From positions 1 to 28,942 of IMG/VR virus record IMGVR_UViG_3300003873_000422: a DNA stretch of 28,942 nt; one strand, 5' to 3'. Of the stretch, positions 5,711 through 24,486 are shown piece by piece. Position numbers and translations under genes: made by a program. How positions within the stretch are numbered: position 1 is the stretch's first letter; each line of letters starts with the position of its first letter. Source of the DNA: a virus. The notes below the pieces were generated by a model that had not been told where the DNA came from, ran no database searches, and saw nothing but the letters and a program-made list of their open reading frames with translations.

Positions 5711-6277
5711 ATGAACACACCACTAATTATAGAAACTATTGGGCGAAATAAAAAGACCTTCGATCTACCGACTAAACTATTTGAACAGAGTATAATAATG
5801 CTAACAGGTGAGATTGATGATGATCTAGCATCTTCTATAATCTCCCAATTATTATATTTAGATACTATAGAGTCAGAAGATGATATTAAACTATACATAA
5901 ACTCACCAGGGGGTGTAGTTACAGCAGGGTTAGCTATATATGATACTATTAAAAACATGAAGAGAAAAGTACACACTTTAGGAATGGGTAGCGTAGCGAG
6001 TATGGCTGCATTACTGCTTTTCATAGGTACAGGACAAAGAAAAGTCTTGAAGAATACAAGAATTATGATACACTCTGTAATAGGTGGTACATATGGGTCT
6101 ATACACGACCAGATAATTGACTTAGAAGAAACTAAATATCTTCAAGATAGAATGATAGAGATATTATCAGAAGTATCAAATCTAGATATGAGTACTATAA
6201 AGGAGCTTACCTTAAGAGATAAGTATTTATCAGGACAAGAAGCGTGTACTTACGGTCTTATAGATAGTGTTGTATAA
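5711..6277 (+). CDS. clpP: ClpP-type serine protease
   Basis: A 188-residue ClpP peptidase, near full bacterial length. The catalytic triad is visible: Ser97 in GSVASMAA, His121 in RIMIHSV and Asp170 in LTLRDKYLS. The oxyanion/strand motif YINSPGGVVTAG (62-73) is intact. ClpP forms barrel-shaped tetradecamers that degrade proteins fed by an AAA+ partner. In phages ClpP-like enzymes are sometimes prohead proteases, but this one is a canonical ClpP by sequence and lies among replication genes. It is translated right after the AAA+ ATPase (9-nt gap, AAAGGAAAATAATG). No ClpX/ClpA-type gene other than that ATPase is in the window. It could also mix with host ClpP subunits. Confidence 0.95.
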   Translation: MNTPLIIETIGRNKKTFDLPTKLFEQSIIMLTGEIDDDLASSIISQLLYLDTIESEDDIKLYINSPGGVVTAGLAIYDTIKNMKRKVHTLGMGSVASMAALLLFIGTGQRKVLKNTRIMIHSVIGGTYGSIHDQIIDLEETKYLQDRMIEILSEVSNLDMSTIKELTLRDKYLSGQEACTYGLIDSVV

Positions 6278-6315: not shown

Positions 6316-8124
6316 ATGAAATTATTCGAAACAGCATATCAACATAAATTTAGATATTACGAAAGATACTATGATACAGATCTTAAAAAATCAGTAGTAA
6401 AACCAATATTTACACCTGCAGAATGGTACACAGAACATCCTCAAGGACCGTACTCTTACATACTTGATGACAATATAAAATTGAAAAGGCAAGAGGGGCA
6501 TGCTAAAGATGGTAGAGGTCATTACGGTTTTACTAATCCGTTGTACAGGCACATAAGAGATCAGTATTGGAGTGAAACGGAGGGTAAATATAATAAAGAA
6601 CCAAGGACTTGGTATATTGATATAGAAACTAGGGTTGGTAAAAGTTACAAAAACCCTAATAAGTCAAATACATTAATGGTTATTAGGAGTAAAAAAGATA
6701 AATCAGAAATAACTAGTTCAATCCGAGAATTACAAGATAGATTTTATGAAAATGGTTCTGAAAATTATGAGTATTTCGATAATATATCACAATCATACGA
6801 ACCTTTAGATAAATCTATTTACTTCGAAAGGAATGTAGGTTTTCCAAAGCCGGATAAAGCACTAGAAGAAATATGCTTAATGCAGGTGTTTGATAGCAAA
6901 CTAAATACAGTATTTGTCTTCGGTTCTAGACCGTGGTATTATCAAGATTCCTATGATTTCGAATACGATGTAAAATATATACACTGTAAAGACGAGATAG
7001 ACATCATAGAAAAATACCTGACTGTGTTTAAAAAGGTAGATCCTTTATTGATATATGCGTGGAATGGATCAGGATTTGACTTTCCTTATATTTTCAATAG
7101 ACTTAAGAATAATAACATAGATACTAACAGGTTGAGCAATCATGGTAGTACAAATCTTAGATATATTGAGCACATAGATAGCTTTGATCTTCAAGCAGAC
7201 GGTCATATTTACTATGATTTACTTGATGTTTACAAGAAGTTTACTTATGGTGATCAAGCATCTTACTCACTAGATTATACAGCTGAACTTTTACTAGGTA
7301 AGCACAAAGTACAACATACTGAGTATAAAGTATTTGATGATTTTTACTCAGGGAATTATACAATACCTGAATATCCAACAGAAGAACAAAAAAATTCTAA
7401 AATATATAAGGCAGCGCTAAAAGGTGATATAGAAGAAGTAAAAAAATTAGCTTATTCTGATTTTGTATATTATGGTGTTATAGATACACATCTTATAAAA
7501 GAGATAGATAACCTCAAAAACTTCAGCGTACTACTAACAATGATCGCCGAAAAAATGGGTGTTCTTTTACAAGATAGTATGGGTACTGTTAGACCATGGG
7601 CTAGATATATATCAAACAAAGCACTACAAAGCAACAGAATAATGCCAAAGGATCAATATTCAGATGGTGATACTAGTATTAAAGGTGGGTATGTAGCAGA
7701 ACCTGTAAAAGGTAAACATAATTGGGTTCTTTCATCAGATGTTAACAGTATGTATCCATTATTAGGAATGGTTGGTTTTAACATGAGCCCTGAAACGTTT
7801 ATACCTCTTAGTAAAACACCAAACGATCTAAAAGAAATTATTCTAAGATATTACAATAATGAAAATGAAGCGGAACGATTTGATATACCCGTACAGGTAA
7901 AAGAAAGAGTTACGGAGCTTTTACAAAAATACAATTATTCTATGGGTATGAATGGTGCATTATTTACTAGAGAAAAAACTGGAATGATACCAGAAATGAT
8001 ACAAGATATTTACAAGTCTAGAAAGATAGCAAAGAAGACAATGTTTGCTTATGAACAAAAATCAGTTGATATAAAGGAAATATTACACCAACGTAGACTT
8101 AAATTAAGTAAAAATACAATATAA
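6316..8124 (+). CDS. 43A: DNA polymerase gp43A: exonuclease and N-terminal polymerase part
   Basis: Family-B (T4 type) replicative polymerase, first polypeptide. The 3'-5' exonuclease motifs are Exo I WYIDIET (D102, E104), Exo II YAWNGSGFDFPYI (D255) and the Exo III-like YYGVID (Y386, D390). Polymerase motif A is SSDVNSMYP (474-481). The frame stops at 8124 in the fingers region, before motif B, and the remainder is a separate gene 20 nt downstream with its own ribosome site. Polymerase genes divided at a similar place (43A/43B) are known in some T4-like Aeromonas phages. No intein signature is present at this break, so the two chains probably associate non-covalently. Upstream is AAAGGAGATAG plus a TATTATATATAA promoter-like stretch. 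Confidence 0.95.
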   Translation: MKLFETAYQHKFRYYERYYDTDLKKSVVKPIFTPAEWYTEHPQGPYSYILDDNIKLKRQEGHAKDGRGHYGFTNPLYRHIRDQYWSETEGKYNKEPRTWYIDIETRVGKSYKNPNKSNTLMVIRSKKDKSEITSSIRELQDRFYENGSENYEYFDNISQSYEPLDKSIYFERNVGFPKPDKALEEICLMQVFDSKLNTVFVFGSRPWYYQDSYDFEYDVKYIHCKDEIDIIEKYLTVFKKVDPLLIYAWNGSGFDFPYIFNRLKNNNIDTNRLSNHGSTNLRYIEHIDSFDLQADGHIYYDLLDVYKKFTYGDQASYSLDYTAELLLGKHKVQHTEYKVFDDFYSGNYTIPEYPTEEQKNSKIYKAALKGDIEEVKKLAYSDFVYYGVIDTHLIKEIDNLKNFSVLLTMIAEKMGVLLQDSMGTVRPWARYISNKALQSNRIMPKDQYSDGDTSIKGGYVAEPVKGKHNWVLSSDVNSMYPLLGMVGFNMSPETFIPLSKTPNDLKEIILRYYNNENEAERFDIPVQVKERVTELLQKYNYSMGMNGALFTREKTGMIPEMIQDIYKSRKIAKKTMFAYEQKSVDIKEILHQRRLKLSKNTI

Positions 8125-8144
8125 TATATAAAGAAAGGATGACA

Positions 8145-8293
8145 ATGATAGAAAGAGACCCACTAGAATATAGCAACGAAGAATTAAATTCTCTATCAAC
8201 TGAAGAATTGGAAAAAATAGCTAAAAGATGTGATGATTTACAGTCATTACATAATACAAGCCAGCTTGTACAAAAAGTTCTCATAAACTCGCT
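8145..8293 (+). CDS. 43B: DNA polymerase gp43B, exon 1
   Basis: Starts at ATG 8145 after AAGAAAGGATGACA (an alternative in-frame ATG is at 8139). The 49 full codons end ...TSQLVQKVLINS plus the two bases CT of a leucine codon. This matches the T4 polymerase fingers helix ending in LINSLYG. Unspliced, the frame runs two codons into the intron and stops at 8300. Splicing to 8590 completes CT-G TAT GGC GCC, giving NSLYGA, the conserved motif B. Confidence 0.9.
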
Positions 8294-8589
8294 AAACTAA
8301 ATATGGTGAGTATAAATTGGTTAAACTGCGGGGAACTACTTAGAGCTCTGTGTAACTAAACTATGTTAGAGATAACATATGTGGCTCTATTAATGATTAG
8401 AGGTATAGTAACATCACACAGAGATTGGATAATCCGCATCCAATCATCTTAACTTTACAATTAAGGATGTACTAGCAATAGTACTTAAAAGATGAAGGTT
8501 CAGAGACTATAATACCAACGCATTTTGCGAATGTATAGTCCAGACCACAAACATTCGAGAGAATGGTGTTCGAAAGACATGGTGGTACG
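8294..8589 (+). ncRNA. Group I intron (296 nt, no ORF) in the polymerase gene
   Basis: All core helices can be drawn. P1: exon ACUCGCU pairs with the guide GGUGAGU, with the diagnostic U-G at the 5' splice site. P10: intron AUAU just before the guide pairs with exon-2 GUAU. P3: UUGGU (8317-8321)/ACCAA (8514-8518). P4: GCGG (8328-8331)/CCGC (8434-8437). P5: CUCUGUGU (8346-8353)/ACACAGAG (8416-8423). P6: CAUCC/GGAUG. P7: GACUAUA (8505-8511)/UAUAGUC (8534-8540). P8: CGCA/UGCG. P9: CAUUC-GAGA-GAAUG (8552-8565). The intron ends in G (8589). The precise removal restores NSLYGA. It carries no endonuclease gene, so it is either immobile or depends on an enzyme in trans. Confidence 0.96.
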
Positions 8590-10549
8590 GTATGGCGCCC
8601 AAGCTAACAAGTATTTTATGCTGTTCAATATAGACTTAGCAAGAGCAATAACCTCTAACGGTAGATATTTCATTAGAACCTTAGGTAAATACATAGAAGA
8701 GGGGCTTCAAAATCTTCAAAAAATGGATAGACCATATGTCATTTATCATGACACCGACAGTGTTATCGGTAGTACAAATATAAATACTTCAAAGGGTTTA
8801 TCACAGATACAAGATCTATATGATAATGTACCAGGTACTATAGAGACTATAGGTAAAGATGATTACGTTAAGCATGTAGATGATGGCATAAAATGCTTAA
8901 GTTTCAATACCGCAACTGAAAAGACAGAACATAAAAACATAAAGTACATAATGAAACATAAAGTACAAAAAAGAATGTACAAGATTGAAACCAAGTTAGA
9001 TAATGTAGTTGTTACAGAAGACCATTCTGTTATAATAAAGAGAAATAACAAATATATTGATATAGCTGCAAAGAATATAAAAAATAATGATATTATAATA
9101 TTACAAAACGAGCAAACAAAAAACTTTAAAATAACAGACTTAGGAGTTCAAGAACAATATGTATATGACATAGAAGTAGAAGATAATCATAACTTTTTCG
9201 GTAACAATATACTTGTACACAACTCTTGCTATTTTAAGATTGACAACTTTGTAAATAAAGCATTTAAAGATAAACTGGGTTCAAATATTCAAGAAAAAAC
9301 AGATTTTTGCGATAACTTTTACAAGAATATTGTAGATAAATTTGTTCAAAAAACTATCGACGATGTTGGTGCTGAGCTAAATGTTTTTAACAAAGATGTG
9401 GTGGGGTCGGAAAGGGAAATAATTGCATCATGTTTATCACCAAAAACACCTATTAGAGTACTTAAAGATGATAAGGTTCAAACACTCTCTATCTCAAGTT
9501 TTGCTAAAAGCTGTGGTATAGATATTCGTACAAAATCAGAAGAAATTATTGATATATCTGATAAAAATATTTTTATACCAAGTTATAGTAATAACATAGA
9601 ACCTCAGAAAATACTAAATATACAGAAGAAAGTAACAACTAAAAATATGGTAGAATTAATATCACCTACAGGAAAAAGCATAGTAGTTACTGAAGATCAT
9701 AAAATTGCTGTAAAACTAGAAAATCAAATAATATATAAAGAAGCTAAGAATATAGCAGAAGATGATGATGTTGTTTATCATGATTTTGGTACTACAACTA
9801 AATTTAATAGCGAGATATTCGGTAAAGAATATATAAACCCATCCTCTAAAAGAAACAACAATGACAGGATATCTGCTGGTAAAAAAATAAGTAGAGCAAG
9901 ACTCAATGGTAGTCGAAAGAGAGAGAATGAACTAGTCAATAGAATCACTAATATTATAAAAAAAGGAAAATATTTTTATAAACTATATCTTTTTTTATAT
10001 ATAACAAAGAAGTATAGTAAAAGTGTAATAATAAATTTTTTAAAATGTAATAATTTAGAAAAATACTTTGATATATCAATAATACATCATATGGTTGTGA
10101 ATAGAGATAAAGTATCTAAGCGGTTAAAATATATCAAGAAGAAAGACTGGTCTCTACGACCTAGATCTACTCGCGAGCGTATAAAAACTCGATTTAGAAT
10201 ATTTTGTGATAGGTGTAAGGTACATTATGATAAAAATAGAAGAGCGACTAAATCGACTAAATTACATACTGACAAACACCGATATAGGAAAGAAGTAAAA
10301 AAATATACAGAGAATAGCGTAAAAAACTACAATATCAAAAATATAGAAAAAAGAGATAAATATAACTGGAACTTAGATCACATAGTACCTATTATGTATG
10401 GTTTTGAGCATAATATACCACCTGAAATTATAGGGAATCATAAGAATTTACAAGTTATTTCAAAATGTGATAACATAAAAAAAGGTAAAAAATTACCATT
10501 AAATTATAATAAAGAATTATTTAAGGATTATATAAATGAAAGGTTTTAA
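8590..10549 (+). CDS. 43B: DNA polymerase gp43B exon 2: extein + mini-intein + extein + N-intein fused to HNH endonuclease
   Basis: Reads on from the intron with YGAQANKYFMLFN. The palm motif C is YHDTD-S, interrupted by a 155-residue cis intein (8759-9223), after which SCYFKIDNF resumes the polymerase. A second extein stretch ends ...VVGSEREIIAS, the equivalent of T4 FMDREAIAG. At Cys (9431) the N-half of a split intein starts (CLSPKTPIRV; block B VVTEDHKIAV) and continues into an HNH nuclease region with a CDRC knuckle and WNLDHIVPIMYGFEHN...NLQVISKCDNIKKGKK. The ATG at 8525 lies inside the intron and is not the start; translation begins at 8145. The stop at 10549 lies 14 nt into the next gene, which suggests translational coupling. 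Confidence 0.93.
8759..9223 (+). mobile_element. Mini-intein in polymerase motif C (DTD|S)
   Basis: A contiguous 155-residue Hint domain without an endonuclease. It begins with Ser (SVIGSTNIN, block A-like), has block B VVTEDHSVI, and ends with YVYDIEVEDNHNFFGNN...VHN followed by Ser. Removal joins VIYHDTD to SCYFK, the catalytic YxDTD(S) motif of family-B polymerases. This site is a known intein hot spot in archaeal and viral polymerases. The nucleophile is Ser rather than Cys. Confidence 0.92.
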
Positions 10550-10649
10550 GGTACAACCATATAGATATAAAAATGAAAGGAAGATAGTATATGATATAGA
10601 AGTAGAAGGTAACCATAACTTTTTTGCAAATAATATACTTGTTCATAAC
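9431..10649 (+). mobile_element. Split intein in polymerase with fused HNH endonuclease
   Basis: The N-intein (blocks A and B, about 118 residues from 9431) is followed in frame by an HNH endonuclease up to 10549. The 38-residue C-intein (IVYDIEVEGNHNFFANN...VHN) is encoded from 10536 to 10649 and is followed by Cys. Removal joins EREIIAS to CAIWVAKKKYA, matching T4 DREAIAG...GFWTGKKRYA. The two frames overlap by 14 nt in different phases, so the halves are separate chains. This is the canonical split position, just before the C-terminal blocks F/G. Confidence 0.9.
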
Positions 10650-11243
10650 TGTGCTATATGGGTAGCAAAGAAAAAATACGCAGCGCGCGTTCTTGATTCA
10701 GAAGGTGTTAGATACAAAGAACCAAAATTAAAAATTATGGGTCTTGAGATAGTGCGATCTAGTACACCTAAATTTGTACAAAAGAAGCTAAAAAATGCTG
10801 TAGATACAATTCTTGACAGTACAGAAGATGAAATCATTAAGTACAAAGATAAAGTACTATTGGAATTTATGAAAGAACCGTTGCCAAATATTGCAAAAGT
10901 ACAAGGTGTTTCGAATATAGATTATGATTTATTGACAAGTAAGAGCATACCCATTGGTGCTAGATCTGTCTTGGTATTTAATGAGTACATCAAGAAAAAT
11001 AATCTTGTAGATGAATATCAGCTTATAGACCCCGGTACTAAAATTAAGCAAATGTACTTAAAAGAACCGAATAAGTTTAATTCTAATATCATTGCATGGA
11101 ATGATGACAAATTTACTAAAAATATAGATTGTGTAGATTATCAAAAGTGTTTTGAGAAGTACTTTTTATCACCTTTAGAAATAATGACAAAACCTCTAGG
11201 TTGGAATATTCACAGAACAACAGAAGCTCTAGATGAGTGGTAA
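10536..11243 (+). CDS. 43B: DNA polymerase gp43B: C-intein + C-terminal thumb
   Basis: Residues 1-38 are the C-intein ending VHN. From Cys39 the polymerase continues with WVAKKKYAARVLDSEGV and PKLKIMGLEIVRSSTPKFVQK, near-identical in pattern to T4 EPKLKIMGLETQKSSTPKAVQ. The C-terminus ends ...TTEALDEW; a PCNA-like clamp-binding tail is not obvious. The ATG is 14 nt inside the preceding endonuclease frame, with AAGGA 8-9 nt upstream. The mature 43B extein is about 372 residues (50 + 56 + 69 + 197); with 43A (602) this gives about 974 residues, against 898 in T4. Confidence 0.94.
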   Translation: MKGFKVQPYRYKNERKIVYDIEVEGNHNFFANNILVHNCAIWVAKKKYAARVLDSEGVRYKEPKLKIMGLEIVRSSTPKFVQKKLKNAVDTILDSTEDEIIKYKDKVLLEFMKEPLPNIAKVQGVSNIDYDLLTSKSIPIGARSVLVFNEYIKKNNLVDEYQLIDPGTKIKQMYLKEPNKFNSNIIAWNDDKFTKNIDCVDYQKCFEKYFLSPLEIMTKPLGWNIHRTTEALDEW

Positions 11244-12890: not shown

Positions 12891-12901
12891 GTTACGAAAA
12901 A

Positions 12902-12909
12902 TATAAATA
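12902..12909 (+). promoter_or_regulatory. Late promoter motif of HNH endonuclease A leader
   Basis: TATAAATA in a 32-nt block (12891-12922) repeated identically before the second HNH gene. By T4 spacing, transcription would begin close to 12915, the start of the TATAAGAG arm of the structured leader. Confidence 0.6.
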
Positions 12910-12914
12910 AAGTA

Positions 12915-13009
12915 TATAAGAGGTTTCGAATGTGTATATGCTCTTGAACGGCTCATATACACATTCGAAACAGCCGTTCAGCAACTCTTATAAATTAATT
13001 TATAGGAGT
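12915..13009 (+). promoter_or_regulatory. Structured leader A: interlocked inverted repeats and RBS-hiding hairpin
   Basis: Arm X (12923-12940) is perfectly complementary to X' (12954-12971), 18 bp. Nine bases of its loop (Y, TGAACGGCT, 12945-12953) are complementary to Y' (AGCCGTTCA, 12972-12980) directly after X'. Full X/X' and Y/Y' pairing cannot coexist because no linker spans the 18-bp stem, so they are alternative or partial pseudoknot states. Next, ACTCTTATAAATT (12984-12996) pairs with AATTTATAGGAGT (12997-13009), burying the TAGGAG ribosome site. TATAAGAG at the 5' end (12915-12922) is complementary to CTCTTATA (12985-12992) and could open that hairpin. The leader is homologous to 16193-16297. 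Confidence 0.85.
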
Positions 13010-13014
13010 CTTCA

Positions 13015-14208
13015 ATGACTACATATATTAAAATACTAAACGAGTTCAAGAACTCAAATATCAAAATTACATCTATAGACAGGTTAAAAGAATACATTCA
13101 TTATTGCATAGATAGAGATCAAGGTTCTAAAATAAAATATCAAACATCTCAACATCATATCTTACCGAAAGCTAAAACTTGCTTTCCTGAATACAAAAAT
13201 TTGAAAGAAAATCCATGGAATAGTACTCATTTATTCTATTACGATCACTATTATGCTCATTGGTTATTAACTGAATCAATAGACAATCATGGTCAGTTAT
13301 TTGCTTTTTGTGCTATGCATAACCAAGATATAAAATTAGGTAGAATTAATGAATCTGATCTTATACCACCTGAGGAAATTCAGAGAAAGACGGAATCAAG
13401 GAGTGAAAAATACTTACAATGGTGTAAAGAAAATGGTGAAAAAATTTCTAAATGGCGTAAAAATAACCCGAAAAAAGTTAAAGAAGCTATAAAAAAAGCT
13501 AAAATAACATGCTATAAAATAAAAGAAAATGGTAAAACAATATATCAAGAAGTTGGTGAACATATATCTAAATGGTATAAAGATAATCCAGATAAAGTCA
13601 AAGAAGTTAGAAAAAGACAAATAGAAACTTGTTCCAAAATAAAAGATAATGGTAAATCAATTTATCAAGAAAATGCTGAAAAATATTCACAATGGTGTAG
13701 AGAAAATTTAGATAAAGTTAGAGAAAAGTCAAATAAACAAAGCAAACTTAAAAACTCTAAAGAATGGAAAGAAACAATTGGTAAAGAAAAAATAGAAAAA
13801 TATAAAGAAACCATATCATCAAAAGAATGGAAAGAAACAATTGGTAAAGAAAAAAGAAGAAAAAGAAAAGACACTACTTCATCAAAAGAATGGCAAAAAA
13901 CTACTGGTAAAGATGCATCTAAAAAACAGAGTAAAACAAAAAGTTCTAAAGAATGGCAGGAAACAAAAGGTAAACGACAAGCAGAAAAAATAAGTTTAGC
14001 TAACTCGCGTAAAGATACTTACAATATATATAGAGAAGAGAAGTTGCTTATGAAAAATGTAATTTTTAAAGATGTGGTAAAAATAGCACAAACACTTATC
14101 AGAACAACTAAAGAGAGACCTTTAGGGTGTACAAGACAAGGAAAAGTAAGGTTGAACACTTTTAAGAAATTACATCTAATTGGAATGTACGTTATAAAAA
14201 TTAAGTAA
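13015..14208 (+). CDS. Free-standing HNH homing endonuclease A with SKEW repeats
   Basis: The N-terminal domain holds a phage-type HNH motif: HHILP (H47, H48), NLKENPWN, then DHYYAHWLL (H78, H82). The remainder is a lysine-rich array of DNA-binding-like repeats: ISKWxKxNPxKVKE units followed by four SSKEWKET-GKE units, recalling NUMOD3-like modules. A conserved C-terminal domain (YNIYREEKLL...RPLGCTRQGK) is shared with the paralogue at 16303. It sits between the DHH gene and gp41 rather than inside an intein, so it is likely an intergenic mobile endonuclease. Expression is governed by the structured leader at 12915-13009. Confidence 0.88.
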   Translation: MTTYIKILNEFKNSNIKITSIDRLKEYIHYCIDRDQGSKIKYQTSQHHILPKAKTCFPEYKNLKENPWNSTHLFYYDHYYAHWLLTESIDNHGQLFAFCAMHNQDIKLGRINESDLIPPEEIQRKTESRSEKYLQWCKENGEKISKWRKNNPKKVKEAIKKAKITCYKIKENGKTIYQEVGEHISKWYKDNPDKVKEVRKRQIETCSKIKDNGKSIYQENAEKYSQWCRENLDKVREKSNKQSKLKNSKEWKETIGKEKIEKYKETISSKEWKETIGKEKRRKRKDTTSSKEWQKTTGKDASKKQSKTKSSKEWQETKGKRQAEKISLANSRKDTYNIYREEKLLMKNVIFKDVVKIAQTLIRTTKERPLGCTRQGKVRLNTFKKLHLIGMYVIKIK

Positions 14209-14213
14209 AGTTA

Positions 14214-14223
14214 TGATATAATA
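14214..14223 (+). promoter_or_regulatory. Extended -10 promoter of gp41
   Basis: TGATATAATA (TGn + TATAATA, -10 at 14217-14223), 19 nt before the gp41 start, with no -35 match. AAAGGATATAA is the ribosome site. Confidence 0.45.
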
Positions 14224-14241
14224 TAAAAATAAAGGATATAA

Positions 14242-15957
14242 ATGTTTGAACATATTTTACTTCAAAAACTACTAAATGATAAAAAATTCTTTTCTATGGT
14301 AATACCAATATTAAAAGATAATCAATTTACAAGTATTGGTAATTCTAAAATCTTTGATATAATGTTTAAATACTATCAAGAATATCAAAATGTACCTACT
14401 ATGACAGAAGTGATCGCTACTGTTAAAGATATACCAAACCAGGAGACACGTAAAAGTATAGTACAAGAATTACAGACTATATCAAAAACTGAAATTGTAC
14501 AAAATTCAGAATTTATGATTAAAGAGACTATTGATTTTGTAAAAAATTCTATATTTACAGAAGCTTTAATTATTGGATCTGATGCTTTAACTGAAAAGAA
14601 CGAAGAAAAAATTCTAAAATCAAAGCAACTAATGGAAGAAATGTCAAAAATTTCAATAAGTTCTGACTTGGGATTATCTTTCAATGATGATCTGGAAAAA
14701 ATGATTGAATACTACCAGAAGAAAGACATTGGTGTAAGAACCATACACGACTCTATTAATAAGAGAATAGGAACAGGTTTTCTACCAGGAACATTAAGTG
14801 TAATTTTAGCAGCTGCAGGAATTGGAAAATGTTCTCACAAAGATGATCCAATAGAGGTTTATATAGATAACAAAAAAGTTAGATTAACATATAAAGAATT
14901 GTTTGAATTACAAGGATGGGATTCTAAAAATTATTATAGTACTCAAAATTCAACTAAAGAAATATATGTCATTACACCAAATGGATTAAAAATAATAAAA
15001 GCAGGTGTTGTAAAACCGGATTTAGATATGTTAGAAATAGAATTTAAGAATGGTTCTAAATGTAGAGTAGCGGATACACACATTTTTTCATATTGTAATA
15101 ATATGGTATATGCAAAAGATGCTAAATATATTGATACTAAAGACGGTTTTACAACCATATTAGAAAAAGAATATATCGGAAAACATGATGGTTATGATAT
15201 AAACATAGACGAACCACATTGGTATTATAATCCAGATGGAGTAATTTATCATAATACATTGTTGATGACTGACATATTATCCGGTCAACTAAAAATGGGT
15301 AAAAATATTTTACTAGTATCTATGGAGATGCAAGATAAGGAAATGATGAAAAGAGTACACGCAAATGCTCTAGATTTACCAATTAACGGAATAAAAGATA
15401 TGTCACCAGATGCTATAAGAATGGCGAAGGAGAGATTTAAGACTACTGGTAATCTTTTCATTAAGGATTATCCATCTGGTTCATTTTCTGCATTAATGTT
15501 AGATTCTTTATTAGATAGCTACGAAAACGAGAAAGGGATAGTTTTTGATATTGTGTATCTAGATTATATAGGAATTATGAAATCTGACCTATTATCTCCA
15601 AGCGCAGGACTTTATAGTTACGTTAAAAGTATTACAGAAGAAGTTAGAGCTATAGCAACAAAACGGCAGATACCAATAATATCAGCTAGTCAGTTGAATC
15701 GATGTTTAGATAAAGATACTAATATAAAAACTAAAGATAATAATAAACCTATAAAAGACATTAATGTAAATGATGAGCTACCAGATAACAAAAAAGTTGT
15801 AGAACATTTAGACACTGGATATCAAGAGTGCTATGAAATAAAAACAAAATCAGGAAAGACCTTAATATGTGCAGAGAATCACAAGATACCAACTAATGAA
15901 GGTACAATGTCTATTAAGATTGGTTTAAAAGAGGGTCTAAAAGTAAATACAATCTGA
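14242..15957 (+). CDS. 41: Replicative helicase gp41: N-part, mini-intein, motor domain, split N-intein
   Basis: DnaB-family hexameric helicase that unwinds the fork ahead of the polymerase. Residues 1-196 carry the N-terminal domain and Walker A start ILAAAGIGK, interrupted by a 142-residue intein (197-338), then TLLMTDILSG resumes. Walker B is DIVYLDYIG (436-444) and the QLNR motif (484-487) ends this extein. Cys488 begins the N-half of a split intein (CLDKDTNIKTK, block B LICAENHKIP, ending GLKEGLKVNTI), closely like the gp41-1 split intein found at the same QLNR|S position. The rest of the helicase is encoded from 17924. The assembled extein is 477 residues, essentially T4 gp41 length (475). 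Confidence 0.95.
   Translation: MFEHILLQKLLNDKKFFSMVIPILKDNQFTSIGNSKIFDIMFKYYQEYQNVPTMTEVIATVKDIPNQETRKSIVQELQTISKTEIVQNSEFMIKETIDFVKNSIFTEALIIGSDALTEKNEEKILKSKQLMEEMSKISISSDLGLSFNDDLEKMIEYYQKKDIGVRTIHDSINKRIGTGFLPGTLSVILAAAGIGKCSHKDDPIEVYIDNKKVRLTYKELFELQGWDSKNYYSTQNSTKEIYVITPNGLKIIKAGVVKPDLDMLEIEFKNGSKCRVADTHIFSYCNNMVYAKDAKYIDTKDGFTTILEKEYIGKHDGYDINIDEPHWYYNPDGVIYHNTLLMTDILSGQLKMGKNILLVSMEMQDKEMMKRVHANALDLPINGIKDMSPDAIRMAKERFKTTGNLFIKDYPSGSFSALMLDSLLDSYENEKGIVFDIVYLDYIGIMKSDLLSPSAGLYSYVKSITEEVRAIATKRQIPIISASQLNRCLDKDTNIKTKDNNKPIKDINVNDELPDNKKVVEHLDTGYQECYEIKTKSGKTLICAENHKIPTNEGTMSIKIGLKEGLKVNTI
14830..15255 (+). mobile_element. Mini-intein in gp41 Walker A (K|T)
   Basis: A contiguous 142-residue intein without endonuclease: Cys1 (CSHKDDPIEV), block B CRVADTHIFS, C-terminal blocks DGYDINIDEPHWYYN...IYHN followed by Thr. 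Splicing rebuilds AAAGIGK-TLLM, i.e. GxGKT. The helicase cannot bind ATP before splicing. Confidence 0.92.
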
Positions 15958-16005
15958 GATTAGTGTAAGATAGCAAAGATCTACGATTGAATTAAAAGGA
16001 TAAAA

Positions 16006-16188
16006 ATGAATAAAATAATTGTAGATATCTCAGATTTAGACTTACCGTATCAGATAGAGGTAAGAAAGTTATTGATTGAGTACAAACCGAAATTCATATC
16101 CAGTACAACATTTATAGTAGATAAAAGTGATAATTTAGTTAAAATACTTGACAATTACAATATTTTTAGTTACGAAAAATATAAATAA
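16006..16188 (+). CDS. Hypothetical 60-aa protein between gp41 halves
   Basis: Not recognised. AAAAGGATAAAA gives a good ribosome site. The gene ends ...SYEKYK within the conserved block before leader B, so its last codons overlap the TATAAATA motif. A small gene also occupies the analogous place in the TerL split (22098-22298), but the two proteins show no clear similarity. Confidence 0.65.
   Translation: MNKIIVDISDLDLPYQIEVRKLLIEYKPKFISSTTFIVDKSDNLVKILDNYNIFSYEKYK
16180..16187 (+). promoter_or_regulatory. Late promoter motif of HNH endonuclease B leader
   Basis: TATAAATA inside the block that is identical to that before endonuclease A. The expected transcription start is near 16193, at the TATAAGAG arm. 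Confidence 0.6.
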
Positions 16189-16192
16189 AGTA

Positions 16193-16297
16193 TATAAGAG
16201 AATCTATATATACATCTTGGCTCTTTGCGGTTTCCCAAGATGTATATATAGTTTGAAACCGCAGATTTCAACTCTTATAAATTCAATTTATAGGAGT
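16193..16297 (+). promoter_or_regulatory. Structured leader B: same architecture as leader A, different arm sequences
   Basis: X 16204-16220 pairs with X' 16235-16251 (17 bp). The loop starts CTCTT, then Y TGCGGTTTC (16226-16234) pairs with Y' GAAACCGCA (16255-16263). ACTCTTATAAATT (16271-16283) pairs with AATTTATAGGAGT (16285-16297), hiding TAGGAG. TATAAGAG (16193-16200) can pair with CTCTTATA (16272-16279). The flanks match leader A nearly base for base, while X and Y share no sequence with it. Only the pairing is conserved. Confidence 0.85.
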
Positions 16298-16302
16298 CTT
16301 CA

Positions 16303-17937
16303 ATGACTACTTTCAATAAAATACTTAGTGAATTTAAAAATTCAAATGTTAAAATTATATCTATAGATAGATTAAAAGAATACATCCATTTTTGCCTTGA
16401 TAAAGATCAAGGTTATAGAGTTAAAAATTCAGAAGGATATAGTCTAATATCTTATCATCATATTTTACCTAGAGCATTATTTGAACAATATAAAAATTTG
16501 AAAGAAAATCCATGGAATGGTACATATCTTTTATATGCAGATCATTATTATGTTCATTGGTTATTGACTGAAGCAATAAATGATTATGGACAATTATCAG
16601 CTTTTTGTGCTATGCATAATAGAGATTTAAAATCAGGTAGAATAAATGAATCTGATTTAATACCTTTAGATGAATTCCAGAAAAAGATGAAATTAAGGAA
16701 TGAAAAAATATCTAAATGGTATAAAGAAAACCCTTATAAAGTCAAAGAAGCTAAAAAAAGACAAATAAAAACTTGTTCTAAAATAAAAGATAATGGAAAA
16801 ACTATATATCAAGAGAATGGTGAAAAATATTCTCGATGGTATAAAGAAAATCCGGATAAAGTTAAAGAAATTGTTAAAAAGCATAAAGAAACAAAAAGAT
16901 CTAAAGAATGGAAAGAAACAATTGGTAAAGAGGCTATTGAAAAACATAAGCAATGGTTTAAAAATAATCCAGATAAAGTCAAAGAGAATGGTGAAAAAAT
17001 TTCTAGATGGTTTAAAAATAACCCAGATAAAGTCAAAGAAAGATCAATAAAGCATAAAAAAACTATATCATCTAAAGAATGGCAAGAAACAGTTGGTAAA
17101 GAAGCTGTTAGAAAACAGAAAGAAACTACATCATCTAAAGAATGGAAAGAAACAAAGGGTAAAGAAGCTGTTAGAAAACAGAAAGAAACTAAAAATTCAA
17201 AAGAATGGAAAGAAACAAAAGGTATAGAATCCACTAAAAAACGTCTAAAAACCATAAAAACAATTCAAGAAAATGGTAAAACAATAGCACAAAATATATC
17301 TATAAAATCTGCTGAAACAATGTCAAAAATTCAAGAAGATGGTTTAACAATAAGACAAAAAGCAGAACTAAAAAGACAAAAAGTGTTACAAACTGTACAA
17401 GAAAATGGTTTAACCATTCAAGAAAATGCTGGTATAAAAATAAGTAAAATAAGAAATTCTAAAGAATGGAAAGAAACAAAAGGTATAGAAGCTAAGAGAA
17501 AAGAAAAAGAAACAAAAAATTCTAAAGAATGGCAAGAAAATGTTTTAAAACCTGTTATAGAAAAAAGAAAAAAATTAATGAGTTCTAAGGAGTGGAAAGA
17601 AAAAGTTGGTAAGAAAGCTAATCTTAAAGGTACATTAAAAAATATGAACTACTATGTTTATAACATATATAGAAACAATGAACTTATAATGGAGTATCTT
17701 ATTGTGAGGGATCTTAATAAAATTGCAATTCCTTTAAAAAGAGCAACAAGAAGTAATCCACTTGGAGTTACAAGACGTTCAAAATTAGGATTAAACAAAA
17801 GTAAAAAATTATTTCTTACTGGTATGTATTGTGAGAAAGTTAAGCTATATGATGTAGATAAGATAAACGAAATAGAAGATATTAATGAATTTTATGATAT
17901 AATAAAGGATATAAAGGATAAAAATGAGAATAGTTGA
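16303..17937 (+). CDS. HNH homing endonuclease B inside the gp41 split intein
   Basis: Paralogue of the 13015 gene: the same start (MTT..KIL.EFKNSN.KI.SIDRLKEYIH), the same HNH core (HHILP, NLKENPWNG, DHYYVHWLL) and the same C-terminal domain (YNIYRNNELI...NPLGVTRRSK). It has seven SKEW-type repeats against four in A, plus extra IQENG(L/K)TI units, making it 147 residues longer. The endonuclease probably cuts intein-less gp41 alleles to spread the fractured intein locus. Its last 14 nt overlap the gp41 C-half gene, coupling endonuclease and helicase translation. Confidence 0.88.
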   Translation: MTTFNKILSEFKNSNVKIISIDRLKEYIHFCLDKDQGYRVKNSEGYSLISYHHILPRALFEQYKNLKENPWNGTYLLYADHYYVHWLLTEAINDYGQLSAFCAMHNRDLKSGRINESDLIPLDEFQKKMKLRNEKISKWYKENPYKVKEAKKRQIKTCSKIKDNGKTIYQENGEKYSRWYKENPDKVKEIVKKHKETKRSKEWKETIGKEAIEKHKQWFKNNPDKVKENGEKISRWFKNNPDKVKERSIKHKKTISSKEWQETVGKEAVRKQKETTSSKEWKETKGKEAVRKQKETKNSKEWKETKGIESTKKRLKTIKTIQENGKTIAQNISIKSAETMSKIQEDGLTIRQKAELKRQKVLQTVQENGLTIQENAGIKISKIRNSKEWKETKGIEAKRKEKETKNSKEWQENVLKPVIEKRKKLMSSKEWKEKVGKKANLKGTLKNMNYYVYNIYRNNELIMEYLIVRDLNKIAIPLKRATRSNPLGVTRRSKLGLNKSKKLFLTGMYCEKVKLYDVDKINEIEDINEFYDIIKDIKDKNENS

Positions 17938-18511
17938 TAGTTCCGAATTTATAAAAACTCTAGATGATGGTATAAGAGAAGATCAATGTGTTGATATTGA
18001 TTACAATGATGAGATTGTATCCATTAAACCAGTTGGTAAACGTAAGACATATGATATCAATATAGAAGGCTCTGATCATTTTTTCTACGCAAATAACATC
18101 TTAACTCATAATTCAGCTACTGGGTCTAATCTTGATATATCGAGCACAGGAAATGCCCAAATTTCAGACAGTATTGGTACAGCCCAGACGTCAGATTTCA
18201 TGATTTTTCTCCTACAAACTCCAGAGATGAAGGAAGAAGGTCTTATGACGTGTAAAGTTACTAAGAATAGATTTACAGGTCGTACAGATTACTGGGATAT
18301 GAACATAGATTACGAACATATGCGTTTTAGTGATGTAATTGTTCAACCAGGTGACTTAAATACTAAAGCTCCTATTGGTATGACCGAAAAACAGATAAAA
18401 ACAGAACTAGGTAATATAAATGCAAATGATGTCAAAATTATTAAAAAACACGACAATGAGACTAAACTAGAAGATGATTTCGATGTTCTATCAGAGCTTG
18501 GGTTGAGTTAA
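17924..18511 (+). CDS. 41: Helicase gp41: C-intein + C-terminal part
   Basis: Residues 1-63 form the C-intein (last residues LTHN). From Ser64 the helicase continues with SATGSNLDISS, AQTSDFMIFLLQTPE and KNRFTGRTDYWDMNIDYEHMRFSDV, matching the T4 gp41 C-terminal core. AAAGGATAAAAATG supplies the ribosome site inside the preceding frame. The C-terminal tail (KLEDDFDVLSELGLS) is acidic. Confidence 0.94.
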   Translation: MRIVDSSEFIKTLDDGIREDQCVDIDYNDEIVSIKPVGKRKTYDINIEGSDHFFYANNILTHNSATGSNLDISSTGNAQISDSIGTAQTSDFMIFLLQTPEMKEEGLMTCKVTKNRFTGRTDYWDMNIDYEHMRFSDVIVQPGDLNTKAPIGMTEKQIKTELGNINANDVKIIKKHDNETKLEDDFDVLSELGLS

Positions 18512-19893: not shown

Positions 19894-19975
19894 CCAAACT
19901 CACTTATATCATTAGGATAACAACACTTGTCTATTGATATTGAAGATTAGCCAAACTCACTTATATCATTAGGAT
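19872..19975. repeat. 47-nt direct repeat at a convergent gene junction
   Basis: Copies at 19872-19918 and 19929-19975 differ at one base (A 19893 / G 19950) and are separated by 10 nt. Each contains the last codons of the rightward gene (SIDIED stop) and, on the other strand, of the leftward terminase (NDISEFG stop). Only copy 1 serves the rightward gene and only copy 2 the terminase. It looks like a local tandem duplication of the shared 3' ends. No hairpin terminator is visible. Confidence 0.9.
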
Positions 19976-21158
19976 CAAAATCTCCGAAATCATCTGGTAT
20001 ATTATAATCATTACTATATGACCCGAATTCGTCTGTATCAAAACCTTCATATGTTATTACATTATTAGGTTTTTCTTTTTCTGGTACTATATCAAAAGAA
20101 CCTATTGTTAGTATTTTACTAATATCAACTTCACTTTCTTCTTGACTTTTCATCGTATCTACTACAGTTTTCATATCTAGAAAATTGTCAGCATTGTTAA
20201 ATATCGTAAATGCTAGTGCTAAGCTCATCACACAATCATCTTTAGATGTACCATCCGCTTGGTACTTGTTATCTTTAAGAACAAATGAGAATAATTGTTT
20301 AATCGTATCCGCATCATTTATTTCTAGTTGATTATTTTCTGTAAACGTTTTTAGTGTTTTTAGTATAAGATTTCGTGATGTCTTCGTAGTTCTTGTTCCT
20401 GGATATTTTTTCTTAGCCTTTACTTTATTCTTCTGATTTTTGCTAGAGTCGAAGTGTAAATTTTCATACTCGTATGTTTTGTACATCTGATCAGCTACGC
20501 TTTGACCAGCACCTTCATTATTCTCTATTATAAGATAAGGATTACCATATAGCTTACACCAATCATTAAGTAACTCAGGCATCAATAAATAATCTATTTG
20601 TAAATTAGCTGTAGCTACTTGTTTAAAATCCAAGTTAGTAATATCTATAAAGTTTACTACAAAACCATCAATACCGTCTTTAGCAGGATCTACCGAACAT
20701 ATGTATTGGTGTTCTTTCTCATATTCGTAGTACACTTTTAACTTACCATCTATCGTAGCTATTACTTCTTTAGATGCTAACTGTCTTAAGGTGCTAGCTT
20801 CTATTAGAGTGTACGAAGAACCCGCAAAGGTATTATGTGATAATATGTTATTAGTGTAATATACTTTACCCTCAACGTTAGTTAAGTCAAATACTTCCTT
20901 TTTACCTATTGGTGTTATTTTTTGAACTACTGTATAACCATCTTTAGTTTGTAGTTTGTCACCTATTTTTAAATCCTTAGCAAATATTTCAGTATCATCT
21001 ATAACAAAAATATGCTTTTCTGCTGCTTCTATATAACCGGAGTATGTCTCAATTTTTAAAACTTCTTTGATATATCTAGCTATACCTGTAAAGGGTTTTT
21101 TACCATTCGGTGTATCTACGTACATAGGTTTTTTTAATCTTTTAAGAATTGCTTGCAT
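19947..21158 (-). CDS. 17: Large terminase gp17: C-intein + nuclease domain
   Basis: Residues 1-109 are the long C-half of an atypically split intein (TPNGKKPFTGI..., ...EKHIFVIDDTEIFAKDLKIGD, terminal LSHN), resembling the C-half of AceL-TerL. From Thr110 the terminase RNase-H-fold nuclease follows, with metal-binding acids in YICSVDPAKDG (T4 D401 equivalent), LIIENNEGAGQSVA (E458) and SKDDCVMSLALAF (D542). The start at 21158 follows AAAAGGTTATAGATAA and overlaps the endonuclease gene by 25 nt; Met12 is an alternative start. The C-terminal tail is acidic. Confidence 0.93.
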   Translation of the reverse strand: MQAILKRLKKPMYVDTPNGKKPFTGIARYIKEVLKIETYSGYIEAAEKHIFVIDDTEIFAKDLKIGDKLQTKDGYTVVQKITPIGKKEVFDLTNVEGKVYYTNNILSHNTFAGSSYTLIEASTLRQLASKEVIATIDGKLKVYYEYEKEHQYICSVDPAKDGIDGFVVNFIDITNLDFKQVATANLQIDYLLMPELLNDWCKLYGNPYLIIENNEGAGQSVADQMYKTYEYENLHFDSSKNQKNKVKAKKKYPGTRTTKTSRNLILKTLKTFTENNQLEINDADTIKQLFSFVLKDNKYQADGTSKDDCVMSLALAFTIFNNADNFLDMKTVVDTMKSQEESEVDISKILTIGSFDIVPEKEKPNNVITYEGFDTDEFGSYSNDYNIPDDFGDFDPNDISEFG

Positions 21159-22135
21159 TTATCTATAACCTTTTGGTGATGTTTTATATATTCTTCTTCG
21201 CCTATCCTTAAGATCTTATATCCTTTATTTCTCAATATTATGTCTCTTATTTCATCCTCATCTTTAGAAGTTTTATGCCAATAAGTACCATCGAGCTCTA
21301 TAATTTTATCTTTATATTTAAAATCTACAAACATTGTAATTCTATTATGTCCTATAAGTTTTTTATCTTCTTTGTTAAAATTAATTCTAAATTCACCATA
21401 TTTATTGAATGTAGCATATCTTATGTTATTTTGGTCTAATTCATCAATGATGCTATTAAAAAGGTGCTGACTTATTTTACTATAGGACGTGTTTTTTCTT
21501 TGTGAAAAATTATATCGCCAGTACTCATCATATTTTTGCTGCCCTTTATAATCACCATATTTAGCTTTAAACCATTTTAAGGATAGTTGTCCTTTTTTAT
21601 TTATTTTTGACTTTTCTCTTTTCTTATAATTTGTAATATAACCTTTTACAATACCATGTGTTATAATATCCTGTGCTAATGAATTTGGTGGTATTTTACA
21701 ACATCTACCTGTTTTTTGAAATCTACTATTATCGTAATCCCATTTTATTTGTGTATTACAATAACACGCACAGTTCGTCACACTTTCAGCTAGTATTAAA
21801 TGTATTTTAGCGTTCATACTTAAACGCACTAAATTATATTTTTCACCTATGTAATTTATATACGACTCTATAGACTTGTATAGTTTAGGATATACTCTTA
21901 TAAATGGTCGTATATTTTTGATGTAAAGGTACTCGGGTATATTTATGATTTCACTCTGCATTTCTGCTAATGTAAATAAAGTATCAAAATAGACTCTATC
22001 TATCTTCTTGTGGCTTTCTTTTATAGATTCTGACGATTTTTTACGTGATTTTAAACTTCTATTCTTATTAGCGCAACTATGACACCACGTAGCTTTATCA
22101 CTTATTGGTTTTTGACAATCTTTGCAAAAATTCAT
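21134..22135 (-). CDS. Vsr-like (EDxHD-type) homing endonuclease with zinc ribbon
   Basis: The N-terminal zinc ribbon is CKDCQKP...TWCHSCANKN (C4, C7, C18, C21), with further cysteines at 122-146 (CACYC, GRCC). The C-terminal nuclease has MFVDFKYKDKIIELDGTYWH (D271, E280, D282, H287), then EDEIRDIILRNKGYKILRIGEEEY, the very-short-patch-repair fold described as a homing endonuclease family associated with fractured phage genes. The WRYNF...RKNTSYSK block may be a DNA-binding linker. It is followed by the TerL C-half (25-nt overlap) and preceded by GAAGGAAATAAAA. Confidence 0.88.
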   Translation of the reverse strand: MNFCKDCQKPISDKATWCHSCANKNRSLKSRKKSSESIKESHKKIDRVYFDTLFTLAEMQSEIINIPEYLYIKNIRPFIRVYPKLYKSIESYINYIGEKYNLVRLSMNAKIHLILAESVTNCACYCNTQIKWDYDNSRFQKTGRCCKIPPNSLAQDIITHGIVKGYITNYKKREKSKINKKGQLSLKWFKAKYGDYKGQQKYDEYWRYNFSQRKNTSYSKISQHLFNSIIDELDQNNIRYATFNKYGEFRINFNKEDKKLIGHNRITMFVDFKYKDKIIELDGTYWHKTSKDEDEIRDIILRNKGYKILRIGEEEYIKHHQKVIDKCKQFLKD

Positions 22136-22298
22136 TTTTATTTCCTTCTTGGATATAAACTCTATGGTCTATATTTTTTTCTCTTAATATCTCTATCATA
22201 TGATTTAAAACTTTAGCATATGATAGATTGTGGTTTGTCATGTATTTTATGTTTTCTTTAGATACTAGTACCGGTATTTTTTTCATAACATTTCCCAT
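22098..22298 (-). CDS. Hypothetical 66-aa protein between TerL halves
   Basis: Not recognised. A small, mostly helical, basic protein (SYAKVLNHMIEILREKNID). Its start overlaps the end of the TerL N-half by 16 nt with GGAGAG as ribosome site, and its end overlaps the endonuclease by 38 nt. This tight overlap on both sides supports real translation. It could be an accessory of the endonuclease or a host-like regulator. Confidence 0.7.
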   Translation of the reverse strand: MGNVMKKIPVLVSKENIKYMTNHNLSYAKVLNHMIEILREKNIDHRVYIQEGNKNEFLQRLSKTNK

Positions 22299-24403
22299 AA
22301 CTCTCCAATTTTTATATTTATATTATTTATATTTATGAGAGTATCAAAACCTACACAGTTCCCGTAGGATTGCTGGAAGAATACTTCTCCTTTAGTAGCA
22401 AGAATCTCTTCATAAAACTCGTTTGGTGTTTTTACAGTACCATCTTGTTTAAATCTTGGTACCTTTTTCCAATCTGTGTGAAAAGCTATAGAATTATTTG
22501 ACCCATTTTTACGTTTTTGATATTGTACTTTGTAATTTTTGTCAGATTTTGTCAGGTTATTTACTTTTATATCTGATATTTTATTAGATGGTTCTATGCT
22601 AAGTATTTCAGAAGGTTTCACTAATGATTGGTAGTGGTTTTCTACCGTATCAGAATATATAATATAAGAACCGTTTAGAATTTCAGTAACAATATCATAA
22701 CCATCTTTCATTGCATTACTATACAGTATCTCAAACTCATTCATACCATTGGCTGTACTAATAAAAATATTTTTCTTTTTAGCTAGCGCAGATTGTGATG
22801 GTAACATAGAATCTAAATATGCTTCAAATCTAGTCATATTATTATCATTACCAGATATGTAAGCCGCTTCATCTGTGATTAGATATGAACAATTATGATG
22901 TGTTACACCGTCTACTAAATATGTATTATCACCTTGAACATTTATAGGGTCATAATAGTTATGCTCAGTGTCTTGAGTAATTTTCAATATTTTTTTAGAT
23001 TTTATCTTATGATTTACTTTAAGATTTTTAGCTTGTCTAAATATTTTACCACCTTTGTACTTTCCACACAATATTCGATGATCTTTGGTACAGTTAATTT
23101 GAGTATTATCTAAAATTATTGATACACCAATGTCTTGAACTTTTTTAAGACCATCAAAAGGTTTATATCCTTTTTTTGTAAGAATTTTTTGGTTTTTGTA
23201 TATGTTGTAAAGATTGTCAAAAGTTATAGTTTTTCTGACATTATTTTCTAATATATCTATTTTTGTATCACCTCTTAGACAGGTGTGACCCCTGAACGCT
23301 GAACTACCCGCTCTATCTGAAAGAATTCTAACGCCATTTTCTAGAGATATACTTTTCATATTCCATGCTTTGATACCAGGTGTTAACCAGATTGGAAGAT
23401 TTACGAATATATCCTTCACTTTCGTTAAGAACTCTGTAGCCATGCTATGTTTTTGTGCTGCGATTCCTACATTTACATCTTTTTCAAAAAGGCTCAAATG
23501 TACTAAGTATATACCGACAGTCACACTTTTACCACTATTATGACTTAAAATACCATTACTGTAATATACCTCATCTTTAGAATCGATAGATATGTCATAC
23601 ATATGCTCTTTTATTTTTAAGTCTTGTACAGAAATTACTTTACTGGGACCATTTACTGTATTTAGAATAATACCAAGACAATCTTTTACATATACTTCTT
23701 CATTATCTGATGCTATAACGACGTGATTGTGAGCTGCTTCTAAACTTAAACCATTTTCTAGTACTATTTTATATTTTGGTAGCTTTATCGTTTTATGTAT
23801 ACTGTGAACTTGTTTATAACCATCATTAGTAAGTACTCTGATATTTAGTACCCGTGTTTCAGTAAATAAAGAATCAGAAGACCTGTATTCTTGATATGGT
23901 TTACCTTGATTAAACAGATCACTTATTTTAATTGAACCCTTTGATGTAGTGATACTAGTATTAGATGAGCAACATTGCCTAGGTAAAAGACCCACTATAG
24001 ATTCATTCTCATCCTTGCTAATGCAATCTATAAACTCCAGCTGATAATATCGTAGATCTGGAAAATCTACACCTTTTGGAGTCTTGATTTTAACGTAATT
24101 CATCAAAAAGTAGAAAATATCCTCTTGACATTTCTTAATCTCTTGGATATGTATATCGTGTAATTGTAATTTAGTATTAATTCGTTTTAAGCTTGGTATA
24201 TTTTTATACGATATGATATTTCTAAAAGCATCTAAGTAGAATCCTTCTTCGTTCTGCTCTATATCTAAAATATCAAGAGCTATTTGCTTACCTCTTTTCG
24301 TTTCTCTAAGAGATCGTAGCAATTCCGGAGTAATCTCGTCTTTGTTATTTTTAAGGTGTTGAATTACTTCTTTTGTAAATATTTTAGCTAATTTTTTAGC
24401 CAT
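22283..24403 (-). CDS. 17: Large terminase gp17: ATPase part with two mini-inteins and short split N-intein
   Basis: DNA-packaging motor ATPase. I start at 24403 (MAKKLAKIF, after ACAAGGATTATT and a TATAAATAC late promoter) rather than the upstream in-frame ATG at 24475, whose first 24 residues are low-complexity Y/I/L/K overlapping the promoter. The extein contains YYQLEFIDCIS (adenine-binding region), the Walker A half LPRQ joined after splicing to SGKSVTVG, WNMKSISLENGVRI, Walker B SYLITDEAAYI (D511, E512) and motif III ISTANGMNEF. Inteins interrupt at residues 144-289, 375-504 and 683-706. The mature protein with the C-half is about 700 residues, longer than T4 gp17 (610). Confidence 0.95.
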   Translation of the reverse strand: MAKKLAKIFTKEVIQHLKNNKDEITPELLRSLRETKRGKQIALDILDIEQNEEGFYLDAFRNIISYKNIPSLKRINTKLQLHDIHIQEIKKCQEDIFYFLMNYVKIKTPKGVDFPDLRYYQLEFIDCISKDENESIVGLLPRQCCSSNTSITTSKGSIKISDLFNQGKPYQEYRSSDSLFTETRVLNIRVLTNDGYKQVHSIHKTIKLPKYKIVLENGLSLEAAHNHVVIASDNEEVYVKDCLGIILNTVNGPSKVISVQDLKIKEHMYDISIDSKDEVYYSNGILSHNSGKSVTVGIYLVHLSLFEKDVNVGIAAQKHSMATEFLTKVKDIFVNLPIWLTPGIKAWNMKSISLENGVRILSDRAGSSAFRGHTCLRGDTKIDILENNVRKTITFDNLYNIYKNQKILTKKGYKPFDGLKKVQDIGVSIILDNTQINCTKDHRILCGKYKGGKIFRQAKNLKVNHKIKSKKILKITQDTEHNYYDPINVQGDNTYLVDGVTHHNCSYLITDEAAYISGNDNNMTRFEAYLDSMLPSQSALAKKKNIFISTANGMNEFEILYSNAMKDGYDIVTEILNGSYIIYSDTVENHYQSLVKPSEILSIEPSNKISDIKVNNLTKSDKNYKVQYQKRKNGSNNSIAFHTDWKKVPRFKQDGTVKTPNEFYEEILATKGEVFFQQSYGNCVGFDTLININNINIKIGELWEML
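22892..23281 (-). mobile_element. Mini-intein in TerL before Walker B (GHT|C)
   Basis: 130 residues, starting CLRGDTKIDI, block B INCTKDHRILC, ending YYDPINVQGDNTYLVDG..THHN before Cys. Removal gives SSAFRGHT-CSYLITDEAAY, matching T4 AVRGNSFAMIYIDECAF. No endonuclease. It is one of the shortest contiguous inteins here. Confidence 0.92.
23537..23974 (-). mobile_element. Mini-intein in TerL Walker A (RQ|S)
   Basis: 146 residues, starting CCSSNTSITTSKG, with an AAHNHVVIA block B and ending MYDISIDSKDEVYYSNG...LSHN before Ser. Removal gives LLPRQ-SGKSV, the terminase Walker A (T4 LSRQLGKTT). No endonuclease. Confidence 0.92.
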
Positions 24404-24422
24404 AATAATCCTTGTTTTATTG

Positions 24423-24430
24423 TATTTATA
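24423..24430 (-). promoter_or_regulatory. Late promoter of terminase
   Basis: TATTTATA on the + strand (TATAAATAC read leftward), 19 nt upstream of the chosen TerL start. It overlaps the divergent rightward TATAAATA by two bases. Confidence 0.6.
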
Positions 24431-24459: not shown

Positions 24460-24486
24460 CTATATAAATTAACATAAAGGATACAC

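Follow-up and report, generated by a model that had tools for sequence, protein, structure and literature searches.

A putatively bistable, pseudoknot-capable leader RNA may gate translation of homing endonuclease genes in T4-like phages

Control of translation by leader structure has a precedent in T4, and hairpins that sequester the Shine-Dalgarno sequence (SD), together with late promoters, have been reviewed for I-TevI, I-TevII, I-TevIII, segB and Aeh1 mobE (PMC2988022). Late transcription of I-TevI begins within the hairpin, and the late RNA thereby loses one of its arms (PMC2988022). A different leader structure, the gene 32 leader pseudoknot of T-even phages, is bound by gp32 (PMC3014915). 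Here, we describe a leader element that occurs twice in a 28,942-base virus contig, IMGVR_UViG_3300003873_000422 (the window, meaning this whole stretch), in front of two genes for MobE-like HNH homing endonucleases. The element consists of two pairs of complementary arms, X with X' and Y with Y', interleaved in the order X-CUCU-Y-X'-Y' and placed between a T4-type late promoter and a predicted SD-sequestering hairpin. We favor, with a probability of roughly 0.55, a reading in which it is a cis-acting, structured 5' leader RNA that gates the translation of endonuclease genes equipped with their own late promoter. The leader is most likely bistable and capable of forming a pseudoknot, and it would switch between its states. 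It would be a variant of the known SD-sequestering kind of leader, built on an RNA architecture for which we found no match to any described family.

In leader 1, the promoter TATAAATA is an exact match at 12902..12909 (all features given here lie on the plus strand), and the transcript would start at about 12915, going by T4 promoter spacing. The sequence AUAAGAG (12916..12922), the 5' strand of a helix we term P1, pairs with 12985-12991 in the RNAalifold consensus. It is followed by the 18-nt X arm (12923..12940), a CUCU loop segment 3' of X (12941..12944) that could pair with AAGAG and occurs with small variants in nearly all copies, the Y arm TGAACGGCT (12945..12953), X' (12954..12971) and the Y' arm AGCCGTTCA (12972..12980); the arms are assigned by complementarity and, for X, Y and Y', also by covariation. 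The strand CUCUUAU (12985..12991) has two alternative partners, the 5' AUAAGAG or the SD strand, and the predicted SD-sequestering hairpin spans 12984..13009, with 12984-12994 paired to 12999-13009 and GGAG at 13005-13008. Leader 2 has the same layout, with an exact TATAAATA promoter at 16180..16187, AUAAGAG at 16194..16200 and CUCUUAU at 16272..16278 (both from conservation and the RNAalifold consensus), CUCU read from the sequence at 16221..16224, and arms defined by complementarity: the 17-nt X at 16204..16220, Y (TGCGGTTTC) at 16226..16234, X' at 16235..16251 and Y' (GAAACCGCA) at 16255..16263. Its predicted SD hairpin occupies 16271..16297 (16271-16282 with 16286-16297; GGAG at 16293-16296).

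The two leaders lie where a preliminary description, made from the window alone, had placed them, and they have the arm order and perfect complementarity it reported: X and X' match at 18/18 positions in leader 1 and 17/17 in leader 2, and Y and Y' at 9/9 in each. In leader 1, Y' follows X' directly (0 nt), and in leader 2 a linker of 3 nt separates them. As was also noted then, the outer parts hardly differ, with 97% identity over 36 nt and 19/19 matches around the SD and ATG. Both leaders fold far more stably than shuffled sequences (z = -7.25 for leader 1 and -5.23 for leader 2), with 0/200 shuffles as stable.

With the T4-type endonuclease leaders, this arrangement shares a homing endonuclease gene, a late promoter of its own and a hairpin, here predicted, that buries the SD. 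It differs from I-TevI in that both arms of the SD hairpin lie at least 70 nt downstream of TATAAATA, and a late start would remove neither, and from the T4-type endonuclease leaders in the extra X-CUCU-Y-X'-Y' element in between, which is common to unrelated endonuclease families. Like the gene 32 leader, it would place a pseudoknot upstream of the SD in T4-type phages; however, the gene 32 helices coexist and are bound by the gene's own product, whereas complete helices are mutually exclusive in the present leader, whose downstream genes encode endonucleases, not a single-strand-binding protein. The strand order (X, loop, Y, X', Y'), with Y beside X' in most copies, is that of an H-type pseudoknot, but the strand crossing stem 1 has only 0-5 nt for 14-21 bp, and only part of X/X' can coexist with Y/Y'. 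The leader resembles bistable translational riboswitches and hok-type refolding messages in that more than one predicted pairing partner competes for the anti-SD strand and the order of co-transcriptional folding is expected to matter. It differs from these in having no conserved ligand-binding core and in that nearly all of its inner letters, apart from CUCU, vary freely. In Rfam 15, no family's covariance model scored at or above the gathering threshold, the best matches being far below it and mostly microRNA hairpin models, and no paper describing the element was found in the literature searched, in keeping with the earlier remark that no described family with this layout was known.

Together with 48 further copies, nearly all of them in IMG/VR contigs, the window pair brings the total to 50. 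A protein-pattern search in viral contigs confirmed no relatives of the window endonucleases, and relatives were therefore sought through the DNA flanks. Patterns made from the flanks alone were run over IMG/VR, followed by whole-record searches and a layout parser, which yielded 41 copies including the window pair, and nine more came from flank-only hits. The common order is a T4-type late promoter, AUAAGAG, X (14-21 nt), CUCU, a GC-rich Y (6-13 nt), X', Y', CUCUUAU, an SD-covering hairpin and an open reading frame (ORF), in most cases for a homing endonuclease of the GIY-YIG, HNH or another family. The promoter sits at the same place in nearly all 50 copies, and in a MAFFT alignment of 25 of them AAATA and CTCTTATAA, the latter within the CUCUUAU strand, are invariant and TAAGAG is near-invariant. 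Both helices are present in 7/8 loci that were new in one later IMG/VR flank-pattern search. A similar flank pattern gave 32 matches in GTDB genomes, of which one, on a short contig of a Cloacimonadota metagenome-assembled genome (L201), has both helices; the others do not have both and were dismissed as chance. Besides the leader family, a sequence-free scan of 1.24 Mb, which required an arm of at least 14 pairs followed by the complement of at least 7 nt of the loop directly 3' of the arm, returned a few loops with direct repeats and a single further copy of the same orientation, L004:612, in which Y is complementary. By these results, the layout is specific. The exact leader pattern was not found in the Vibrio phages phiKT1024 and Va1 or the Campylobacter phages IBB_35 and CC_R7, and a BLASTN comparison of two of the leaders with isolated phages found no full-length counterpart.

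Across the 50 copies, a relationship can be recognised among many X arms (AAATGTGTATATG-like), and the arms therefore drift with compensation. The earlier remark that arm sequences are entirely different is correct for the window pair and fails for the family as a whole. In a structural alignment of 39 copies, scored by a G-test with average-product correction against a null that redistributes substitutions along a tree built from the same alignment, all 24 column pairs with E < 0.05 fall in X/X' (15) or Y/Y' (9). Two biases could enter here: X had served to recognise the first 41 copies, and best complementarity had set the position of the Y columns in this alignment. Both bear less on the flank-only copies and on the MAFFT alignment. 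In the MAFFT alignment, two-sided changes occur at 26/27 named pairs, with 198 such cells versus 70 in shuffles, and the covariation score of the named structure is 0.712, compared with 0.230 when shuffled and at most 0.151 when slid. Covariation is as strong in the lower part of X/X', 11-14 pairs away from the loop, as in the upper part. One pair of copies (L142:1269 and L145:6823) has the same X and differs at a single Y pair, which is A-U in one and C-G in the other. Small matching variants of AAGAG and the proximal CUCU (GAGG/CCUC, GAGA/UCUC), confined to a few related leaders, give a hint of covariation there as well; the two segments are able to pair in 33/47 leaders. Comparison among the copies thus supports X/X' and Y/Y' as RNA helices maintained by compensatory change, and the view that the pairing itself is selected, first put forward for the two window leaders, is upheld by both alignments.

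Inner arms that are not self-complementary, which the preliminary description had named as an observation that would tell against it, occur in 2/50 copies (L016 and L153:4879) and not in the remaining ones. L016 (3360-3450) has the same X as L013, with the loop enclosed by X and X' in the opposite orientation. Y and Y' are consequently direct repeats in L016, and Y pairing has thus been lost naturally ahead of a 240-aa ORF that looks intact. The leader at L153:4879 is decayed: X/X' is perfect, but Y now pairs over 6 bp, CUCUUAU is absent and no ORF was found downstream, and it is possibly what remains of a lost endonuclease. A further variant, at L004:520-720, has tandem units before a 435-aa ORF of unassigned function: TATAAATA and a 23-bp hairpin with a partly complementary tail precede a second unit, in which there is a 22-bp hairpin and Y' sits in the loop of another hairpin beside the SD. 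This tandem may be a divergent, kissing-loop version of the leader.

Across the copies, X' and Y' are separated by 0-5 nt, compared with an X stem of 14-21 bp, and Y abuts X' in most of them. With so short a linker, complete X/X' and complete Y/Y' cannot form in one molecule, as had been argued from the window pair; stem 1 would need to shrink to about 10 bp for the connecting strands to suffice. These interleaved helices are mutually exclusive, yet each shows covariation along nearly all of its length, which suggests selection for two or more states or for an intermolecular one. Of the possibilities raised at the outset, a bistable switch or a partial pseudoknot remains the best reading.

The state of the SD is predicted to depend on which strand holds CUCUUAU. 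The RNAalifold consensus combines P1 (AUAAGAG:CUCUUAU) with X/X' and leaves the SD free. When leaders are folded singly, the ensemble probability of P1 is 0.98 just after CUCUUAU has been transcribed (48/48 leaders) and 0.12 in full leaders, in which the SD strand takes CUCUUAU and the SD is unpaired at 0.13 versus 0.46 in shuffles (48 leaders). The 5' AUAAGAG of leader 1 resembles the SD strand AUAGGAG, and the 5' UAUAAGAG resembles the SD strand UAUAGGAG, in the manner of a decoy. Forming P1 costs 2.2 kcal/mol with X/X' and 3.5 kcal/mol with Y/Y', and is cheaper with X/X' in 38/47 leaders. The GC content is 0.53 in Y and 0.13 in lower X, compared with 0.29 for the genome; with Y GC-rich and lower X so AU-rich, Y' could invade the X stem.

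Both helices, the SD hairpin and the shared CUCUUAU strand are supported by comparison among the copies, and we infer an order of states, a coupling between them, a late start at AUAAGAG and some form of trigger. X/X' would zip up as the RNA leaves the polymerase, placing the 5' AUAAGAG, a look-alike of the SD strand, beside CUCUUAU; P1 would then form and the SD would emerge free, such that X/X' with P1 represents the ON state. Later, the GC-rich Y' could capture the loop Y by melting the AU-rich lower half of X/X'. The product would be either a simple Y/Y' hairpin or an H-type pseudoknot that combines Y/Y' with about 10 bp of upper X. With P1 weakened by Y/Y', CUCUUAU would pass to the SD and the message would be silenced, Y/Y' with the SD hairpin being the OFF state. 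Late in infection, a leader of this kind would permit the endonuclease to be translated in a brief or conditional burst, and time, the ribosome or a phage protein are candidate movers of the switch. A bolder version, which we hold only tentatively and regard as doubtful, is that the copies form an undescribed family of ligand-free RNA timers, in which a knotted leader refolds after transcription and opens the SD only on newly made late messages, as a cassette shared by unrelated families of selfish endonucleases in T4-like phages.

In T4, homing endonucleases are known to be translated late under the control of leader structure, and I-TevI relies on a late promoter that cuts off a hairpin arm. 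Here, a self-contained RNA element seems to do the job of the I-TevI hairpin, with a sequence that turns over, a fold that stays and unrelated endonuclease families that share it. The leader may illustrate how selfish genes keep down the cost they impose on the phage, and its 50 natural copies, which carry matching double changes in a putative bistable RNA, are well suited to the study of folding during transcription.

Several points weigh against a translational switch. The predicted minimum-energy fold, computed without pseudoknots, has X/X' together with a closed SD hairpin, and the difference in P1 cost between X/X' and Y/Y' is small, at 1.3 kcal/mol. The rough pseudoknot energy, obtained from a stacking table as about 10 bp of upper X plus Y/Y' with a penalty of 7 kcal/mol, lies below that of the full X hairpin in 38/39 leaders, in favor of the switch, but the penalty is an assumption and the steric rule behind the estimate is crude. 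Near-invariant sequence makes up P1 and the SD hairpin, so the switch strand shows almost no covariation. L016 keeps its ORF though its Y cannot pair with Y', and L007 and L106 have a good leader before short ORFs.

Complementary arms could also arise at the level of DNA, either as inverted repeats kept perfect by replication strand switching or as a DNA cruciform or operator. In favor of a DNA effect, the inverted loop of L016 shows that strand switching does occur between X arms, and imperfect pairs are nearly absent from Y/Y'. When scored symmetrically, however, imperfect pairs in X/X' number 24 G.U and 4 A.C on the sense strand (p = 2e-4, a value that assumes an independence which related copies lack), and among 30 arm clusters 17 have a G.U and 5 an A.C. 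Strand symmetry would be expected of a constraint on the DNA or of templated repair, and the asymmetry points to the sense RNA as the most likely molecule under selection. A DNA effect would also leave the fixed place of the arms between promoter and SD hairpin unexplained; we give it a slim chance, and the cruciform proposed in the preliminary description loses its appeal with the same asymmetry. The idea, also raised there, that X or Y is a guide or antisense region recognising a phage or host target has in its favor that the arms differ widely between copies, yet in the rest of the window X1, Y1 and Y2 find near-matches about as often as expected by chance, X2 has more 2-mismatch matches there than usual but none better than 10/12, copies with almost the same X precede different genes, and no Rfam guide-RNA family fits. 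A guide thus seems barely credible. A ribozyme was dropped because there is no conserved unpaired core apart from CUCU.

Among readings that accept an RNA, a static H-type pseudoknot could serve as an operator for a protein, be it the endonuclease itself or a single-strand-binding protein, that blocks or opens the SD in the manner of gene 32 autoregulation. T4-type phages do use such a pseudoknot in the gene 32 leader (PMC3014915), and the adjacency of Y and X' in most copies is that of coaxially stacked H-type pseudoknots. What makes an operator unlikely is that the lower X pairs, whose covariation equals that of the upper ones, cannot form in such a pseudoknot, that the downstream proteins come from unrelated families, so a common binder would have to be another protein, and that the helix letters vary freely, leaving only shape to recognise. 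We think it quite improbable that the leader mainly protects the late message, with X/X' and P1 sealing the 5' end against 5'-end-dependent decay and Y/Y' adding stability: X/X' does start no more than about 8 nt from the predicted transcript start, and the 5' end would be concealed by P1, but protection needs neither Y/Y' nor an SD strand competing for CUCUUAU. An RNA dimer, in which each molecule keeps its X hairpin and pairs its loop Y with the Y' tail of the other, would satisfy both complete helices, whose covariation over nearly their full length no static intramolecular fold can accommodate, and in the predicted fold Y' is unpaired next to the base of X/X'. Dimers would require a high local RNA concentration and have no direct support, and we consider them very unlikely. 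The switching leader remains the reading we prefer.

The gene behind leader 1 (13015..14208) encodes, by sequence matches, a MobE-like HNH homing endonuclease of 397 aa with repeated NUMOD3-like segments, and that behind leader 2 (16303..17937) a MobE-like HNH homing endonuclease of 544 aa, the N-terminal part of which is 69% identical to endonuclease 1. Among 32 downstream ORFs tested across the family, PHROG homing or HNH endonuclease families match many, and Pfam matches include GIY-YIG, NUMOD3, DUF7487 and T5orf172; the ORFs at L007, L013:8269 and L106 are short or have no match. Since the downstream ORFs span several endonuclease families, the leader would be a regulatory cassette common to unrelated selfish genes.

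The DNA polymerase of the window is nearest to those of Vibrio Va1-type and Campylobacter CP220-type phages. A DnaB-type helicase gene appears to be split inside an intein (14242-15957 and 17924-18511), with endonuclease 2 (16303-17937) between its parts; fractured genes with split inteins occur in other phages, and this arrangement resembles them. The clamp loader, DNA polymerase and terminase genes (2214-4540, 6316-11243 and 19947-24475) likewise appear to be interrupted by intein-like segments with endonuclease-like ORFs, which are without the leader. The phage also encodes a GroEL-like chaperonin (113-1666) and a ClpP-like protease (5711-6277).

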